Of a DNA stretch of 64,000 bases, positions 38,099 through 48,788 are shown piece after piece. Both the position numbers and the translations under genes were made by a program. The stretch covers positions 62,001 through 126,000 of the forward strand of contig NZ_LMRA01000012.1 in the NCBI RefSeq assembly GCF_001424705.1. Direction: 5' to 3'. The notes beneath the pieces are model-generated. The model was not told where the DNA came from. It saw nothing but the letters and a program-made list of their open reading frames with translations, and made no database searches. Source of the DNA: Methylobacterium sp. Leaf465 (lineage in GTDB: Bacteria; Pseudomonadota; Alphaproteobacteria; Rhizobiales; Beijerinckiaceae). Every line of letters begins with the position of its first letter. Position 1 is the first letter of the stretch.

Positions 38099-38104
38099 TT
38101 GACG

Positions 38105-39574
38105 ATGTTGGGCGCCGGTCTTCGTGCAACACTCGAAGCGCTCGATCGATCGCAAGGTCGAATCGAGTTCGCGATGGATGGAAGTGTCCAGAGCGCGAAC
38201 CAGATCTTTCTCGATCTCATCGGCTATACGTTCGCAGAGGTCCGTGGCCGCCCGCACAGCCTGTTCGTCCCTCCGGAGGAGCGGGACACCCCGGCCTACC
38301 GGGCCTTCTGGGACAGCCTGCGCCGGGGCGAGCACCAGGCGCGCGATTTCTGCCGGATCGGCAAGGACGGCCGCCGGATCTGGATCCGGGCGAGCTACAA
38401 CCCGATCCTCGATCGCCGCGGCAAGCCGGTGAAGGTGGTGAAGTTCGCCACGGACATCACCGCGCAGGTGGCGCGCAACGCCGCGTTCGAGGGCCAGATC
38501 GCGGCGATCAACCGGTCGCAGGCGGTGATCCACTTCACGCCGGACGGTCTCGTCACCGACGCCAACCCGAACTTCCTCGCCGCGCTCGGATACACCCTCG
38601 ACGAGATCAAGGGTCGGCACCACAGCCAGTTCGTGGCGCCGGCGGACCGGGACACGCCGGCCTACGCCGCCTTCTGGACGGCGCTGGCGGGCGGCGCCTA
38701 CCAGGCCGGCGAGTTCCGTCGCCTGGCGAAGGGCGGCCGCGAGGTGTGGATCTACGGCGCCTACAATCCGGTCTTCGGACCCGACGGCCGGGTGGTCTCC
38801 GTGGTGAAGTTCGCCAGCGACGTCACCGCCCAGGTCGCCGACCGGCTGCGTCGGCACGAGGGCCAGCAGGCGATCGACAAGGATCTCGGGGTCATCACCG
38901 GCTCGATCTCCGACGTCAGCCATCAGGCGACCCTCACGGCGGAGGCGGCGGCCCAGACCTCCGGCAACGTCCAGGCGGTGGCGGCCGGCGCCGAGGAGTT
39001 CTCGGCCTCCATCGAGGAACTGAGCCGCCACGCGTCCGAGGCGAAGGTCGCGTCCGAGGAGGCGGTGATCCGGGCCGAGGAGGCCTCCGGCATCATCGCC
39101 GGGCTGACCTCGGCCGCCGACAAGATCGGCGAGGTGATCTCGGTCATCCGCACGATCGCCGACCAGACCAACCTGCTGGCGCTCAACGCCACCATCGAGG
39201 CGGCCCGCGCCGGCGAGGCGGGCCGCGGCTTCGCCGTGGTCGCCGCCGAGGTGAAGGCCCTGGCCAACCAATCGTCCCGGGCCACGGAGGAGATCGGGAC
39301 GCAGATCGCGGCTGTGCAGGGCTCCACCACCCAGGCCGTGACCGCGATCGAGGCCATCGCCCGGACGATCGGCCATCTCAGCGAGATCTCGCTGAGCGTC
39401 TCATCGGCCGTGACCGAGCAGGCCGCGGTGACCCGCGACATGACGATCAACATGCAGAACGCCGCCCGGAGCGTCGAGGTCGTGCGTCAGAACATGGACG
39501 GGATCGCCGCCGCCACGATCGACGTCGACGCCTCGGTGCGCAAGGCCGGCGCCGCGGCCCGCGCCCTGGCCTGA
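38105..39574 (+). CDS. Soluble methyl-accepting chemotaxis protein with two PAS domains
   Basis: A 489-residue chemoreceptor without membrane helices. Two Aer-like PAS domains (about residues 15 to 125 and 138 to 247) share GYT(F/L)xE(V/I)xGR, RDTPAY and a C-terminal VKFA(T/S)D(I/V)TAQV. The signalling domain follows, with the hairpin tip [20 protein letters not shown] and [15 protein letters not shown]. It would act from the cytoplasm on CheA, sensing a redox or small-molecule cue. ATG at 38105 is chosen; TTG at 38099 is also in frame. Confidence 0.92.
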
Positions 39575-39861: not shown

Positions 39862-40770
39862 TCAGTCGAGGTCCTGCAGGTGGCGGGCGGCGATGACGGA
39901 CGCGGCCGTGCGGTTCTCGACGCCGAGCTTCTCGTAGATGCCCTCCAGGTGCTTCGTCACCGTGCGGGGGCTCAAGCCCAGGATCTCGCCGATGTCGCGG
40001 CTCGACTTGCCGCGCGAGAGCCAGAGCAGCACCTCCGCCTCCCGTCCGGTGACCCGCAGGCGCAGGCGCAGGCGTTCCAGGCCCGCCTCGGTGCCGTCGC
40101 GCGACAGGCGCAGCAGGATCTCGTCGCCGGTGCCGCCGATGAAGCTGAAGGTATAGGCGGTGCCCGCGCGGTCGCCGAGGGTCAGGGCCGGCGCGCCCGT
40201 GCCGGCGAGGCAGCCCCGGAGCCAGGCGGCCCCCTGCGGCGGCAGGCTCGAGGGAGCGCCGGGCTCGGTGAAGCCGCCGAGCAGCCGGGCGGCCTGGGGC
40301 GTGCCCCACAGGACCGTGCCGTCGCGGTCCACCGCGAACAGGGTGCGGCCGGTGGTGTCGAGGGCGGCGCGCGCGCTCTGGGCCGCTCGGGCACCGGCGA
40401 GATGCACGCGGATGCGGGCCAGGATCTCGTCGGGGGCGATGGGCTTCGTGACGTAGTCGACGCCCCCCGCTTCCAGGCCCTTCACGATGTGCTCGGTCTC
40501 CGACAGGCCGGTCATGAAGATGACGGGCACGTGGGCGAGGTGCCCCTTCGCCTTGAGGCGGCGGCAGGTCTCGAACCCGTCCATGCCGGGCATCATCGCG
40601 TCGAGCAGGATGACGTCGGGGGTGATCTCGTCGACCAGGGCCAGGGCGAGGTCGCCCGCCACCGCCACCAGCACGGTGGCGCCCGAGCGCTCGATCGCCT
40701 CGGTGAGGAAGCTCAGGGTCTCGGGGGAATCGTCGACCACCAGGACGGTGTCGCGCTGCGCCTCAGCCAT
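39862..40770 (-). CDS. Response regulator, REC-PAS-like-LuxR
   Basis: A 302-residue regulator. The receiver (residues 1 to 125) has the acidic pair in VVDDSP, phospho-acceptor Asp 57 in VILLDAMMPGMDG, Thr in FMTG and Lys in TKP. A central segment (about 135 to 230) resembles a degenerate PAS domain (FAVDRDGTVLWGTPQAARLLGG). The C terminus is a LuxR helix-turn-helix: TGREAEVLLWLSRGKSSRDI, then LGLSPRTVTKHLEGIYEKL. It overlaps the NCS1-kinase gene by eight bases, so the two are a cognate pair. Probable targets are the divergent urt/fmd genes; this is inference. Confidence 0.9.
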   Translation of the reverse strand: MAEAQRDTVLVVDDSPETLSFLTEAIERSGATVLVAVAGDLALALVDEITPDVILLDAMMPGMDGFETCRRLKAKGHLAHVPVIFMTGLSETEHIVKGLEAGGVDYVTKPIAPDEILARIRVHLAGARAAQSARAALDTTGRTLFAVDRDGTVLWGTPQAARLLGGFTEPGAPSSLPPQGAAWLRGCLAGTGAPALTLGDRAGTAYTFSFIGGTGDEILLRLSRDGTEAGLERLRLRLRVTGREAEVLLWLSRGKSSRDIGEILGLSPRTVTKHLEGIYEKLGVENRTAASVIAARHLQDLD

Positions 40771-43700
40771 CGGCGGGCTCCAGCAGGCCCTCGATCACCG
40801 CCCGGGCGCGGCGCAGGTCGAAGGCGGCGGTGAGCCCCCGCATCTGCGCGATGAAGGCGGTCGGTGCCGCGGGGCCGCTGTCCATCTCGGCGAGCTTTGC
40901 CTCGATGCCGCGGACGTGCCCGATGCGCACGAGGCGCAGGAGGTCGGCGAGGTGCTCCGGCCGCGGGTCCGGCGCGGCGGCCTCGGGCGGGGGCGGCGCG
41001 GGCGCGTCCCCCGCCGTCCAGTCGAGGCCGAGGAGCCCGGTGACGCATTCGAGGAAGTCGCGCAGGTCGAAGGGCTTGGCGATGATCGCGTCGTGAGGCG
41101 CGTCGTCGCCCCGCACCGGGCTGATCTCGTGCACGTTGGCCGACATCATGGCGATACGCGCCGTGTGGCCGGCCTCCCGCAGGGCCTTGGCCAGCCCCCA
41201 GCCGCTCATGCCCGGCATGGCGATGTCGAGGAGGAACAGGTCCGGCGGCTGGGTCTCGGCCAGCGCCAGGCAGGCCGGGCCGTCGCCTGCCTCCCAGACC
41301 ACCAGGCCGAGGGGTTCGAGGATGTCGCGCATCAGCCCGCGATGGGCGGCATCGTCGTCGGCCACCAGGATCGTGCGGCGGGCCCCCGCGTAGACGCGCG
41401 GCGGGGCGCTCGCCTGCGCCGCCAGCACGGGTTTGGGCCGCGCCACCGAGGCCAGCATCAGCCGGAGGCGAAAGCGCGTGCCGCGCCCGACCTCGCTCGC
41501 CACCGTGATCTCGCCCCCCATCACCTGGGCGAGCAGGTGCGCGATGGTCAGCCCGAGGCCGGTGCCGGGGGTGGAGCGGGCGGCGGCCATCGAGCCGCGC
41601 TCGAACGGCTCGAAGATGCGCTCCAGGTCGTCCGGGCGGATGCCGAGGCCGGTGTCGCTGATCGTGAACACCGCGATCTGGCTGCGGTAGGTCAGATCGA
41701 GGGTCACCGTGCCGGCGGGGGTGAACTTGATCGCGTTCGACAGGAGGTTGAGCAGGATCTGGCGCAGGCGCTTCTCGTCCGTGGCGACCACCGCCGGCAG
41801 GGTCTCGGGCCGGGTGAAGCGGAACGCCAGGGCGGCGCCCTGGGCCTGGAGCCGGATCATGTCGACGATCTGGTCGAGGAAGTCGGCGAGCCGGACCTCG
41901 TTGCGGTGGATCTGGAGGCGGCCCGCCTCCATCCGGGAGATGTCGAGCAGGCCGTCGATCAGCCCCGAGAGGTGCTGGGCCGAGCGCCGGATGACCCGGA
42001 TCCCGTTCTGGCGCGGGGCCGGGATCGCGGGATCGCCCTCGAGGAGCTGCGCGTAGCCCAGCACCGCGTTGAGGGGCGTGCGCAGCTCGTGGCTGATGCC
42101 GACCACGTAGCGGCTCTTGGCGAGGTTGGCGGCCTCCGCCACCTCCTTGGCCTGCTGCAGCTTGGCGTCCGTGACCTTGTGGGCCTCGATCTCGGCCTGG
42201 TAGAGCCCGGTCTGGCGGGCGGTCTCCTCCAGGGCGACCCGGCGGCTCTCCTGGGCCAGCACGAACAGCCAGGCGACGATGCCCAGGATCACGATGAGGA
42301 TCAGGAACACGCTGGTCAGCGCCGCGCCGAGCACCGCGCGGTGCTCGGGATGCTCGGCGCTGGCCCCCGCATGCACGATGCCGAGGATCAGCCCGATCGC
42401 CGCCACCAGGGTGAGCATCAGCGCGAGGTAGCGCCCCAGCGGCGCGCCGATCCAGGCGGCGGTGCGGGCCGGGGCGACCCGGGCGAGCACGCTCTGGGCC
42501 TGGGCTTCCAGGCGGCCGTGCGGCTTGCAGAGATCGCCGCAGCGGGCGTCGAGGGAGCAGCACAGGGAGCAGATCGGCCCGGCATAGGCCGGGCACTGGG
42601 CCATGTCCTCGGGCTCGAACGGGTGCTCGCAGACCCGGCAGGTGATCTCGGTCGCCCCCTGCCAGTCCGTGCGCGGGGTACGAGCGAGGTAGTAGCGCCC
42701 GCCGGTGGCGAGGGCGATCGCGGGGGCGCCCGCGACGGCGACGACCAGGGCCAGCAGCGGCGCGAACGGCACGGCCTGCGTCCCGAGCCAGCCCGCATGG
42801 GCCACGAACCCCGTGAGGATCGCCAGCGCCATGGCGCCTGTGCCCACCGGGTTGACGGCGTAGAGATGGGCGCGCTTGAACTCGATGCCGGGGGGCGACA
42901 GGCCGAAGGGCTTGTTGATGGCGAGGTCCGCCGCCAGCGCGCCGACCCAGGCCGAGACCACCACGGCGTAGAGCGACAGGGTGCTGACGATGGTCTTGTC
43001 GATGCCGAGCTCCATCAGCAGCAGGGCGATGGCGACGTTGAAGACGAGCCAAACCACGCGGCCCGGATGGCTGTGCGTCAGGCGCGAGAAGAAGTTCGAC
43101 CAGGCGATGGAGCCCGCATAGGCGTTGGTGACGTTGATCTTGAGCTGCGAGACCACCACGAACAGGGTCATCAGGGCGACCGCGCCCATGCCCGAGGGCA
43201 CCACGTAGCCGAAGGCCACCGCGTACATCTGGGTCGGCTCGGCGGCCCGCTCGGCCGGAACGCCGTGCGCGATCGCGAGCACGGCCAGGAACGACCCGAG
43301 CAGGATCTTGAGCATCCCGGGCAGGATCCAGCCGCCGCCTGCGCCCAGCACCGCCGCCCACCAGCGCCCGGCGCGCTCGGGCGTGCGCGCCGGCACGAAG
43401 CGCAGGAAATCGACCTGCTCGCCGACCTGGGCCAGCAGCGCCAGGAGGATGCCGGAGGCCAGCCCGAAGCGGGGCCAGTCGAAGCCCCCGAGTCCGTCGG
43501 CCCCCGGATGGGCGAGCCAGGCCGCCACCGGAGCGTCCCCGGCCCAGGCGATGCAGGCGAGCGGCACGAGGTTGAGGACGATCCAGACCGGCTGCGTCCA
43601 GAGCTGGAAGCGGCTGATCATGGCGAAGCCGTAGACGACCAGCGGGATCACCGCGAGGGCGCTGACGAGGTAGCCGAGGCTCGGCGGCAGCCCGAAGCAC

Positions 43701-44128
43701 AGCTCCAGCGCCAGGGCCATGATCGCCGCCTCGATGGCGAGGAACAGGAAGGTGAAGCTCGCATAGATCAGCGAGGTCACGGTCGAGCCGATATAGCCGA
43801 AGCCGGCGCCCCGGGTGAGGAGGTCGATGTCGACGCCGTAGCGGGCGGCGTAGAGGCTGATCGGCGTCGCGGTGGCGAAGATGATGGCGCTGACCACCAG
43901 GAGCGCCGCCAGGGTGTTGGTGAACCCGACCGTCAGCACCAGGGTGCCGCCGATCGCCTCCAGGGCCAGGAAGGAGAGCGACCCGAGGGCGGTCTGGGCG
44001 ACCCGGAACCCGGACCAGCGCCGCGCCTTCTTGGCGGTGAAGCGCAGGGCATAGTCCTCCAGCGTCTCGTCGGCGACGAGGCGGTTGTAGTCGCGCCGGA
44101 TCGGCAGGATACGCTGGTGCTCGGTCAT
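40763..44128 (-). CDS. NCS1-permease/hybrid histidine kinase fusion
   Basis: An 1121-residue multi-domain sensor. Residues 25 to 480 form a complete nucleobase:cation symporter-1 (purine/cytosine/hydantoin permease) domain of about 12 helices: DYALRFTAKKARRWSGFRVA and FLALEAIGGTLVLTVGFTN are CodB-like. Residues 497 to 537 are Cys-rich (CxxC, C, CxxCC, C, C, H), perhaps a zinc site. Two more helices (565-590, 598-625), a coiled coil, then HisKA with His 680 in ISHELRTPLN, HATPase (N box near 798, DTGLGI, GTGLGLTIA) and a receiver with Asp 968 follow. The C-terminal 70 residues are helical. Start ATG at 44128 has a poor ribosome site; ATG at 44152 is possible. It probably senses a nitrogen compound. 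Confidence 0.9.
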   Translation of the reverse strand: MTEHQRILPIRRDYNRLVADETLEDYALRFTAKKARRWSGFRVAQTALGSLSFLALEAIGGTLVLTVGFTNTLAALLVVSAIIFATATPISLYAARYGVDIDLLTRGAGFGYIGSTVTSLIYASFTFLFLAIEAAIMALALELCFGLPPSLGYLVSALAVIPLVVYGFAMISRFQLWTQPVWIVLNLVPLACIAWAGDAPVAAWLAHPGADGLGGFDWPRFGLASGILLALLAQVGEQVDFLRFVPARTPERAGRWWAAVLGAGGGWILPGMLKILLGSFLAVLAIAHGVPAERAAEPTQMYAVAFGYVVPSGMGAVALMTLFVVVSQLKINVTNAYAGSIAWSNFFSRLTHSHPGRVVWLVFNVAIALLLMELGIDKTIVSTLSLYAVVVSAWVGALAADLAINKPFGLSPPGIEFKRAHLYAVNPVGTGAMALAILTGFVAHAGWLGTQAVPFAPLLALVVAVAGAPAIALATGGRYYLARTPRTDWQGATEITCRVCEHPFEPEDMAQCPAYAGPICSLCCSLDARCGDLCKPHGRLEAQAQSVLARVAPARTAAWIGAPLGRYLALMLTLVAAIGLILGIVHAGASAEHPEHRAVLGAALTSVFLILIVILGIVAWLFVLAQESRRVALEETARQTGLYQAEIEAHKVTDAKLQQAKEVAEAANLAKSRYVVGISHELRTPLNAVLGYAQLLEGDPAIPAPRQNGIRVIRRSAQHLSGLIDGLLDISRMEAGRLQIHRNEVRLADFLDQIVDMIRLQAQGAALAFRFTRPETLPAVVATDEKRLRQILLNLLSNAIKFTPAGTVTLDLTYRSQIAVFTISDTGLGIRPDDLERIFEPFERGSMAAARSTPGTGLGLTIAHLLAQVMGGEITVASEVGRGTRFRLRLMLASVARPKPVLAAQASAPPRVYAGARRTILVADDDAAHRGLMRDILEPLGLVVWEAGDGPACLALAETQPPDLFLLDIAMPGMSGWGLAKALREAGHTARIAMMSANVHEISPVRGDDAPHDAIIAKPFDLRDFLECVTGLLGLDWTAGDAPAPPPPEAAAPDPRPEHLADLLRLVRIGHVRGIEAKLAEMDSGPAAPTAFIAQMRGLTAAFDLRRARAVIEGLLEPADG

Positions 44129-44234: not shown

Positions 44235-44360
44235 GATCCCGTGTTTCCACGTGGGCGCGCACCCCGTCCAGTGGCCGGAGCGGCGATGGGACCCTGGACT
44301 CGCGGGCAGTTCGCCAGAATGGGCCTGTCCGCCCGGCTCCGACATACGCAAAACAGCGTA

Positions 44361-44386
44361 TAGGCCGCACTGCACAACGCGGCCTA
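44361..44386. promoter_or_regulatory. Inverted repeat upstream of urtA
   Basis: TAGGCCGC and GCGGCCTA, a perfect 8-bp inverted repeat with a 10-base spacer, 68 bases before the urtA start in the divergent control region. It is a candidate binding site for the neighbouring LuxR-type regulator or another dimeric factor. Confidence 0.45.
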
Positions 44387-44453
44387 GCCTCCGCTCCGTC
44401 GATCCGCGGCCGTCCGATGCGCCGTGCGACGACCGACAGGGGTTTTGGGCACG

Positions 44454-45713
44454 ATGGCAGAGGACAAGGGCAACGGCCTGCAATCGGCGCTCCGGCGCAG
44501 GCTTCTCATGGGGCTCGCCGGCGCTCCGGCGATCGCCTTGATGCCGCGCATGAGCTTCGCGGCGGCGCCGCCGACCTCGGCGGTGAACACCACCGGCCTC
44601 GCCGTGACCGACACGGAGGTCACGGTCGGCATCCTGCACTCGGCCACCGGCACGATGGCGATCTCCGAGACCGGCTCGATCCAGGCCGAGAAGCTCGCGA
44701 TCTCCCAGATCAACGAGGCGGGCGGCGTGCTCGGCCGCAAGATCAAGATCATTCAGGAGGACGGCGCCTCCGACTGGCCGACCTTCGCCGAGAAGGCCAA
44801 GAAGCTCCTCGTCAACGACCACTGCGCCGCCGTGATGGGCTGCTGGACCTCGGCCTCGCGCAAGGCCGCGTTGCCAGTCTTCGAGCAGTATAACGGCCTG
44901 TTGTACTACCCGACCTTCTACGAGGGCCTGGAGCAGTCGAAGAACGTCTTCTACACCGGCCAGGAGGCCACCCAGCAGATCCTCGAATCGCTGAACTGGG
45001 TCACCAAGGAAAAGAACGCCAAGACGTTCTTCTTCATCGGTTCGGACTACATCTGGCCGCGCACCTCGAACAAGATCGCCCGCAAGCACATCGAGAACGT
45101 GCTCAAGACCAAGGTCGTCGGCGAGGAATATTTCCCGCTGGGTCACACACAGTTCAACTCGGTGATCAACAAGCTCAAGCTCACCAAGCCGGATGTGATC
45201 TTCACGGACGTGGTCGGCGGCTCGAACGTGGCGTTCTACAAGCAGCTCAAGGCGGCCGGCATCGACCTCGCGAAGCAGACCCTGCTGACGATCTCGGTGA
45301 CCGAGGACGAGGTCGACGGCATCGGCGGAGACAACATCGCCGGCGCCTATTCCTGCATGAAGTACTTCCAGTCGCTCAAGAACCCGAACAACGAGAAGTT
45401 CGTCGCCGCCTTCCACAAGATGTGGGGCGAGAAGACCGTCATCGGCGACGTGACCCAGGCCGCCTATCTCGGGCCGTTCCTGTGGAAGATGGCCTGCGAG
45501 AAGGCCGGCTCCTTCGACGTCGACAAGGTGGTCGCCGCCTCGCCGGGCCTCGAGTTCAAGGAGGCGCCGGAAGGCTACGTCAAGATCCACCCGAACCATC
45601 ACCTCTGGTCGAAGACCCGGGTCGCCAGGGCCCTGCCCTCGGGCCAGTTCGAGGTGGTCTACGAGAGCCCCGACCTGATCGAGCCGAACCCCTTCCCGAA
45701 GGGCTACCAGTAG
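44454..45713 (+). CDS. urtA: Urea/short-chain amide ABC transporter substrate-binding protein
   Basis: A 419-residue periplasmic receptor of the UrtA/FmdD type. A Tat-like signal (SALRRRLLMGLAGAP, cleavage near SFAAAPP) is followed by TVGILHSATGTMAISETGS, the usual first strand of urea- and amide-binding proteins. GCWTSASRKAALPVFEQYNG and LLYYPTFYEGLEQSKNVFYTG are strongly conserved in this group. ATG at 44454 is favoured; 44424 is possible. First gene of urtABCDE; a long hairpin follows, which may keep its mRNA level above that of the permease genes. Confidence 0.93.
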   Translation: MAEDKGNGLQSALRRRLLMGLAGAPAIALMPRMSFAAAPPTSAVNTTGLAVTDTEVTVGILHSATGTMAISETGSIQAEKLAISQINEAGGVLGRKIKIIQEDGASDWPTFAEKAKKLLVNDHCAAVMGCWTSASRKAALPVFEQYNGLLYYPTFYEGLEQSKNVFYTGQEATQQILESLNWVTKEKNAKTFFFIGSDYIWPRTSNKIARKHIENVLKTKVVGEEYFPLGHTQFNSVINKLKLTKPDVIFTDVVGGSNVAFYKQLKAAGIDLAKQTLLTISVTEDEVDGIGGDNIAGAYSCMKYFQSLKNPNNEKFVAAFHKMWGEKTVIGDVTQAAYLGPFLWKMACEKAGSFDVDKVVAASPGLEFKEAPEGYVKIHPNHHLWSKTRVARALPSGQFEVVYESPDLIEPNPFPKGYQ

Positions 45714-45841: not shown

Positions 45842-45904
45842 TCTGAGGCCTAACTCGGCCCGATGCTTGCACGACCTTCGCGGCATCCTTCGGAGAACGA
45901 ACCC

Positions 45905-46831
45905 ATGTTCGGTGACTATTCGCTCGGGGATCTCAGCTCGATCTTCGTCATGCAGGGCTTCGCCGGGCTTATCCTGTTCTCGGTCTACGTGCTGATGGCC
46001 CTGGGGCTGGCGATCATCTTCGGCCAGATGGGGGTGATCAACATGGCGCACGGGGAGTTCATGATCCTCGGCGCCTACATGACCTATCTCTGCTCGGGCT
46101 TCTTCCAGACCCAGCTGTCGGCCCTGTTCCCGGCCTACTTCTTCGTGGCGATGGCCCTGGCCTTCCTGGCCTCGGGGGCCCTCGGGATGCTGGTGGAATG
46201 GGCCCTGATCCGCCACCTCTACAAGCGCCCGCTCGACACGCTGCTGGCCACCTGGGGCCTCTCCCTGATCCTGCAGCAGGCCTACCGCACGATCTTCGGC
46301 GCCCGCGAGGTCGGCGTCGAGCTGCCGTCCTGGCTCATCGGCTCGGTGCAGGTCACCGACACCATCGAGATCCCGATCAACGGCATGTTCGTCATGGGCG
46401 TCACCACCCTGATCACCGTCGGCGTCGCCCTCCTGATGTACCGCTCGCGCTTCGGCGCCCAGGTCCGCGCCGTGGTGCAGAACCGCGCCATGGCGGGCGC
46501 CGTCGGCATCGACACCGAGCGGGTGGACCGCCTCACCTTTGGCCTCGGCTGCGGCATCGCGGGCATCGCCGGCTCGGCCTTCACCATGGTGGGCTCCACG
46601 GGGCCGACCTCGGGCCAGCTCTACATCGTCGACACCTTCCTGATCGTGGTCTTCGGCGGCGCCGCCTCGCTCCTCGGCACCATCGCGTCAGCCTTCTCGA
46701 TCTCGCAGACGCAGTCGACCCTCGAGTTCTTCCTCTCGGGCTCCACCGCGAAGGTGCTCACGCTGCTGGCGGTGGTCGGCATCCTGATGCTGCGGCCCCA
46801 GGGCCTCTTCACCCTCAAGGTCCGGCGCTGA
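45905..46831 (+). CDS. urtB: Urea/amide ABC transporter permease UrtB
   Basis: A 308-residue LivH-type permease with about eight helices. GLAIIFGQMGVINMAHGEFM is the classic motif of this family, and GGAASLLGTIASAFSISQTQ the later one. ATG at 45905 follows the palindrome by 63 bases. It pairs with UrtC to form the membrane channel for urea or short-chain amides. Confidence 0.93.
   Translation: MFGDYSLGDLSSIFVMQGFAGLILFSVYVLMALGLAIIFGQMGVINMAHGEFMILGAYMTYLCSGFFQTQLSALFPAYFFVAMALAFLASGALGMLVEWALIRHLYKRPLDTLLATWGLSLILQQAYRTIFGAREVGVELPSWLIGSVQVTDTIEIPINGMFVMGVTTLITVGVALLMYRSRFGAQVRAVVQNRAMAGAVGIDTERVDRLTFGLGCGIAGIAGSAFTMVGSTGPTSGQLYIVDTFLIVVFGGAASLLGTIASAFSISQTQSTLEFFLSGSTAKVLTLLAVVGILMLRPQGLFTLKVRR

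Positions 46832-48002: not shown

Positions 48003-48788
<786 letters not shown>

Follow-up and report, generated by a model that had tools for sequence, protein, structure and literature searches.

The locus examined here raises two questions: what is sensed by a histidine kinase whose N-terminal part resembles a transporter, and which genes does it control? The kinase gene lies in a 64,000-nucleotide stretch of the Methylobacterium sp. Leaf465 genome (hereafter the window), divergent from a set of genes for urea and amide utilization. We approached both questions by profile searches, structure modelling, comparison of gene neighbourhoods across genomes and operator search.

Architecture of the kinase and its regulator

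The kinase (HK) and response regulator (RR) genes overlap, as the original prediction claimed; the overlap is 8 nt long. They comprise the following features.

39862..40770 (-): LuxR-type response regulator, 302 aa; Pfam Response_reg and GerE
40763..44128 (-): hybrid histidine kinase, ATG start, 1121 aa
41045..41371 (-): receiver domain of HK, D968; Pfam Response_reg, 3e-19
41453..41782 (-): HATPase_c domain of HK; Pfam, 3e-29
41921..42118 (-): HisKA domain, phospho-acceptor H680; Pfam, 7e-15
42212..42442 (-): two further helices, aa 563-639; from the structure model, the last TM helix continuing into the signalling helix
42527..42640 (-): 8-Cys module, aa 497-534; invariant Cys, weak fold matches
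42692..44050 (-): NCS1-fold sensor unit, aa 27-479; structure model compared with CodB and Mhp1

From N to C terminus, HK thus consists of the NCS1-fold unit, the 8-Cys module, two TM helices, HisKA, HATPase, the receiver and a C-terminal tail. The HisKA, HATPase and receiver parts named in the original prediction are all matched by Pfam, and the two extra helices it had proposed appear in the AlphaFold model at about aa 563-592 and 594-639. RR combines Response_reg with GerE, and we read the linker between its receiver and the LuxR/GerE HTH as PAS-like. H680 of HisKA and D968 of the receiver are identical in 122/122 full-length homologues, and HK is therefore no relic. Since one polypeptide joins a transporter-fold unit to a kinase whose catalytic residues are intact, HK has the build of a transporter-fused sensor kinase (transceptor) in the broad sense. 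The tail after the receiver (about aa 1050-1100, 40829-40981) is conserved and helical and carries an RIGHVRG motif, with no obvious HPt. A gene for a soluble PAS-PAS-MCP chemoreceptor (38099-39574, + strand) converges on the RR gene and lies outside the conserved cluster.

Fold and pocket of the sensor unit

The Pfam model of the family, PF02133 (Transp_cyt_pur), does not match the full HK at E<1, HK aa 1-480 alone up to E 10, or anything else in the genome. Because a sequence search of the PDB with a profile of the sensor relatives found no match either, kinship with NCS1 had to rest on fold and on intermediate sequences. In an AlphaFold model of HK aa 1-640 (47 sequences, pLDDT 82, pTM 0.83), the best fold match is CodB (Z 34.1, 395 residues, 3.3 A), followed by Mhp1 (Z 29.9), with the remaining APC folds at or below 24.4 and SSS structures at about 23. 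The sensor unit therefore has the CodB/Mhp1 fold of NCS1 (TC 2.A.39). A free-standing relative (L125), 29% identical to the sensor, passes PF02133 (3.6e-9) and bridges the two in sequence. A Phmmer search of the PDB with two distant standalone proteins gave a ligase match only, which we judged spurious. The "intact NCS1 domain" of the original prediction thus stands as regards fold, with the L125 bridge, but not as regards PF02133, which it escapes.

The binding site was compared with that of CodB, in which Thr278/Thr279 of TM8 supply the hydroxyls of the Na2 site and Trp108/Phe204 are the aromatic pair sandwiching cytosine (PMC9379551). This mapping depends on an alignment to CodB at about 20% identity. 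The Arg216/Tyr285 pair of CodB is kept in the sensor as R243/Y337, which is invariant. In that alignment at about 20% identity, Thr278/Thr279 fall on Lys330/Ile331 and not on Thr or Ser; K330 is present in every kinase scored and I331 in all except one. Position 129, equivalent to Trp108, is occupied by Phe or Leu, with Phe throughout the 85 amide-linked kinases and Leu in a single urea-linked clade, and position 232, equivalent to Phe204, mostly by V, I, L or M; the aromatic sandwich is thus not retained. The changed Na2 pair and the reduced aromatics suggest a Na+-independent pocket suited to a small non-aromatic ligand. F129 and T334 were also considered as specificity columns and are suggestive at most, as they mainly mark one rhizobial clade. 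Since PF02133 misses the sensor and neither the Na2 site nor the aromatic sandwich is kept, we regard it as a diverged NCS1-fold branch without the canonical Na+ site and do not count it as a standard member of NCS1.

Linkage of the kinase to urea and amide genes

Profile matches, homology and gene order establish the complete divergent urtABCDE-hydrolase-fmdAB-porin-amiE set that the original prediction had described:

44454..45713 (+): urtA, substrate-binding protein; TIGR03407 at 529.9 bits, above cut-off; alternative GTG start at 44424
45863..46831 (+): urtB (short form); TIGR03409
46846..47994 (+): urtC; homology and gene order
48003..48788 (+): urtD; TIGR03411
48804..49553 (+): urtE; TIGR03410
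49565..50581 (+): alpha/beta hydrolase, MetX-like, between urtE and fmdA; PF00561
50704..51933 (+): fmdA formamidase; NF045496 at 759.8 bits, PF03069
52237..52560 (+): fmdB zinc-ribbon protein; PF09723
52655..54181 (+): OprB-type porin; PF04966
54265..55317 (+): amiE aliphatic amidase; PF00795 (CN_hydrolase), 75-94% identity to the aliphatic amidases of related loci

Among the loci compared, the MetX-like hydrolase gene is confined to those of Methylobacterium type.

Of 398 evenly sampled Pseudomonadota genomes, 52 from 36 genera (about 1 in 8) carry the sensor. They have 57 kinase loci, one of which is on a 4.8-kb contig. Homologues away from amide or urea genes had been named beforehand as the outcome that would speak against the predicted link; a database search of the neighbourhoods placed the kinase no more than about 12 kb from urt, ureC or fmdA in all 56 evaluable loci, a count that includes related, non-independent genomes and covers 36 genera. 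Among the 80 loci of the GTDB set, one from Beijerinckia (L080) clearly departs from this pattern, its kinase being unlinked. In a Bradyrhizobium locus (L068) amiE alone adjoins the kinase, and one locus (L072) is cut by the contig end.

The partner sets vary. They consist of amide-type urt with fmdAB and often amiE, of canonical urt with or without urease, or, for gammaproteobacterial kinases, of urease. In L126 and L127 the partners are AmiS/UreI and fmdAB, and the NCS1-Cys sensor sits on another kinase core without a receiver; in these loci (L126:3201-10156 and L127:3169-10347) the output module has thus been swapped and the palindromic operator described below is missing. Four genomes have two kinase paralogues, one at urease and the other at urt-fmdA. 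A division into two clean subfamilies, amide and urea, was rejected, for the label switches four or more times along the sensor tree; the system has therefore moved repeatedly between regulons. The constant partners are urea and amide genes and not fmd alone, some kinases being on urease operons. The original proposal of a sensor for a nitrogen compound is supported by this linkage. We also noted that 342 Klebsiella plasmid records contain the sensor; the two plasmids examined (L007 and L195, IncF types from clinical isolates) carry a urtABCDE-formamidase-kinase cluster.

Free-standing relatives and the class of ligand

The same N-terminal unit also occurs in free-standing proteins annotated as "cytosine" or "allantoin permease", which are about 41-42% identical to the HK sensor and mostly 49-75% identical to the Klebsiella pneumoniae protein. 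Eight of the 10 annotated standalone loci with a sensor-type N-terminal unit are linked to urea or amide hydrolases. In K. pneumoniae, a "cytosine permease" of the sensor family (L290:5573-7180 and L317:6001-7608) follows the urease operon (ureDABCEFG), and in Acinetobacter (L192/L316) the relative precedes the urease genes. It adjoins fmdAB in Moraxella and Tsukamurella (L311, L314) and amiE in Arthrobacter (L006), and in Methylovirgula (L315:1-9394) fmdA, kinase, regulator, a free-standing sensor paralogue and amiE stand side by side, with the paralogue between the kinase-regulator pair and amiE. The two standalone loci of a Streptomyces and a second Arthrobacter (L312, L313) have no amide or urea partner. 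More distant free-standing relatives (L125, L165) adjoin nitrilase-AmiC-AmiR genes. The neighbours of these relatives have urea and short amides in common, which is why we propose this class of ligand: judged from gene context, urea or a short amide is more likely to be the ligand than a purine or hydantoin. The K. pneumoniae "cytosine permease" would then be misleadingly named and becomes a candidate urea permease.

NCS1 transporters have nucleobases, hydantoins and allantoin as substrates, the closest folds to the sensor are CodB and Mhp1, and its relatives bear "cytosine" or "allantoin permease" labels. One could thus argue that the kinase does regulate urt and fmd, while its NCS1 unit senses a purine, hydantoin or allantoin breakdown product whose catabolism yields urea. 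However, both kinases and standalones have genes for urease, formamidase, amidase, nitrilase and Urt proteins as neighbours, with no purine or hydantoin genes among them, and of the base-stacking aromatic pair of CodB there remain Phe/Leu at 129 and non-aromatic residues at 232. We consider this alternative unlikely and prefer urea or short amides as the ligand.

The 8-Cys module

Between the NCS1-fold unit and the two extra helices lies a module, overlooked in the original prediction, with eight cysteines (C497, C500, C512, C520, C523, C524, C530 and C534) in a fixed pattern. The kinases scored comprise 85 of amide type, 57 of urea type and 5 others, and each has all eight. The module has no match in Pfam. 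A separate model of it (pLDDT 75) gave weak fold matches only, with Z up to 5.1, most of them to the two-zinc cross-brace domains RING, FYVE and C1; on this modelled similarity, the module is probably a zinc-binding, cross-brace (RING/FYVE/C1-like) element. The urease-linked free-standing relatives retain 4/8 Cys, and the Arthrobacter relative lacks the pattern.

Urease is nickel-dependent, and the invariance of the eight cysteines in all kinases, the weak similarity to two-zinc domains and the 4-Cys version in urease-linked standalones might be taken to mean that a metal or redox state read by this module is the true signal, the NCS1 unit being a structural or transport element. Yet the module is equally present where the partner enzymes are amidases, and it is partly kept in kinase-free permeases and lost in Arthrobacter, which fits a structural element. 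That the module, and not the NCS1-fold unit, receives the signal is in our assessment very unlikely.

A palindromic operator tracks the kinase and urtA

The gap between the kinase gene and urtA contains one further feature:

44344..44361: palindromic operator ATACGCAAAACAGCGTAT, proposed RR binding site, in the kinase-urtA gap; found by exact pattern and matrix

The palindrome ATACGYNNNNNNRCGTAT in this gap is the sole exact site in the 5.06-Mb genome. The pattern ATACG-N8-CGTAT occurs in 47/85 amide-type kinase-urtA gaps, while shuffled sequences reach 5. An operator matrix was built from sites upstream of kinase genes. In the window, it finds one strong site, the only one above 20 bits (44342-44363, 26.9 bits), the next scoring 13.5. 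Across 132 loci (2.68 Mb), it finds 117 sites of at least 20 bits, 114 of them no further than 600 bp upstream of a kinase gene, urtA or fmdA. The other three are in L164, L193 and L195, where urtA was unpaired with the site in that step. Kinase-linked urtA promoters score at least 20 bits in 39/46, 75/76 and 10/11 loci. Where 1-11 kb separate the kinase gene from urtA, the operator stays with urtA in 20/24 loci, several of them closely related, usually 95-113 bp upstream of the urtA start. In Methylovirgula (L315), operators stand upstream of fmdA/HK and of the separate amiE, at 982 and 9533.

The operator is absent from all 60 urtA promoters of kinase-less genomes, where the best score is 9.0 bits. 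Among other urtA copies in kinase genomes, 1/28 has it, a copy that belongs to a urt-ure-kinase operon. No operator is present in five kinase-urtA loci from the even sample (L138, L156, L153, L152 and L040), at most gammaproteobacterial urease-linked kinases or at the AmiS-linked variant; the targets of these gammaproteobacterial kinases may therefore differ. The idea of a sigma-54 promoter was dropped, with sigma-54-like sites in 20/85 amide-type and 2/52 urea-type gaps.

The tracking of kinase and urtA by the operator across genomes supports the control of the divergent genes by the kinase that the original prediction had suggested, so far as comparative genomics can indicate it. It is highly improbable that the palindrome belongs to another urt regulator (e.g., a general nitrogen regulator) with only an indirect link to the kinase, for although the operator keeps to the urtA promoter when the kinase gene lies at a distance and its binding by RR is a prediction, such a regulator is hard to reconcile with operator-free urtA promoters in 60/60 cases from kinase-less genomes and in 27/28 other urtA copies, and the dyad stands at the LuxR-type regulator's own divergent promoter.

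Proposed mechanism

We think it likely that HK, as an NCS1-derived transceptor, and RR form a two-component system that responds to urea and short aliphatic amides and activates urtABCDE-fmdAB-amiE via the palindrome. The NCS1-fold unit would bind, and possibly transport, the amide and undergo a conformational change, which the Cys module and the last two helices would relay to the HisKA dimer. From there, a phosphorelay via the internal receiver would lead to the LuxR-type regulator; the domains and catalytic residues for this are in place, the HPt step being either missing or supplied elsewhere. RR would then bind the palindrome ATACGYNNNNNNRCGTAT upstream of urtA, an operator identified by comparative genomics, and activate urtABCDE-fmdAB-amiE, with both the binding and its positive sign presumed. 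In other lineages, members of this sensor family are found on urease operons.

A wider reading, to which we give somewhat better than even chances, is that an unrecognized NCS1-fold branch carries urea and short amides without sodium, and that one line of it, fused to a kinase, became a widespread bacterial membrane receptor for urea and amides with its own operator. As part of that reading, the branch would include the proteins labelled "cytosine/allantoin permease" in the urease clusters of K. pneumoniae and Acinetobacter and in the amidase clusters of Moraxella, Tsukamurella and Arthrobacter.

Comparison with known systems

The AmiC/AmiR system of the Pseudomonas type exerts amide-responsive control of amidase genes. 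It shares with the present locus amide-related control, and it is found beside the distant NCS1 relatives L125 and L165. In contrast to it, the present locus has no AmiC-like binding protein and ANTAR regulator but a membrane kinase and a REC-LuxR (GerE) regulator. Pseudomonas veronii has a urt-fmdAB-amiE cluster with the same enzyme and transporter gene set as the present one, and its growth on both acetamide and formamide was shown in the paper on that cluster. The paper notes that the locus lacks amiC and amiR, and nowhere in its text is a histidine kinase, a two-component system or a response regulator mentioned (PMC13209695).

Transporter-kinase fusions are known from the SLC5/STAC sensor kinases CbrA, CrbS and RpuS (PMC7096432, PMC5715377, PMC9100948, PMC13022988). 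Like HK, they join a LeuT-fold transporter unit to a histidine kinase, serve nutrient sensing and are linked to a regulator of uptake or catabolic genes, and CrbS is likewise a hybrid kinase. Their transporter unit, however, is of the SSS/SLC5 type, whereas that of HK has the NCS1 fold (Z 34 with CodB, about 23 with SSS structures) and has no Pfam match to SSF (PF00474). The position of STAC is taken in HK by the 8-Cys module and two helices, and the predicted regulon of HK is that of urea and amides. CodB and Mhp1 (PMC9379551) share with the sensor the 12-TM fold and the Arg216/Tyr285 pair (R243/Y337), but the sensor differs from them in escaping PF02133, in lacking the Na2 hydroxyls, in its reduced aromatic sandwich and in its fusion to a kinase. 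The original prediction knew of no described function for an NCS1-kinase, and our search of open-licence papers likewise found no report of such a fusion.

The use of urea and amides by bacteria matters in soils, on leaves and in urease-positive pathogens. We found no account of a membrane receptor that senses these compounds and signals through a two-component system. The sensor family is testable, its operator predicting its regulon, and with it the few known transporter-kinase fusions gain a second transporter fold. It also offers natural comparisons for how a transporter becomes a receptor, between free-standing permease and fused sensor and between urea-linked and amide-linked paralogues.
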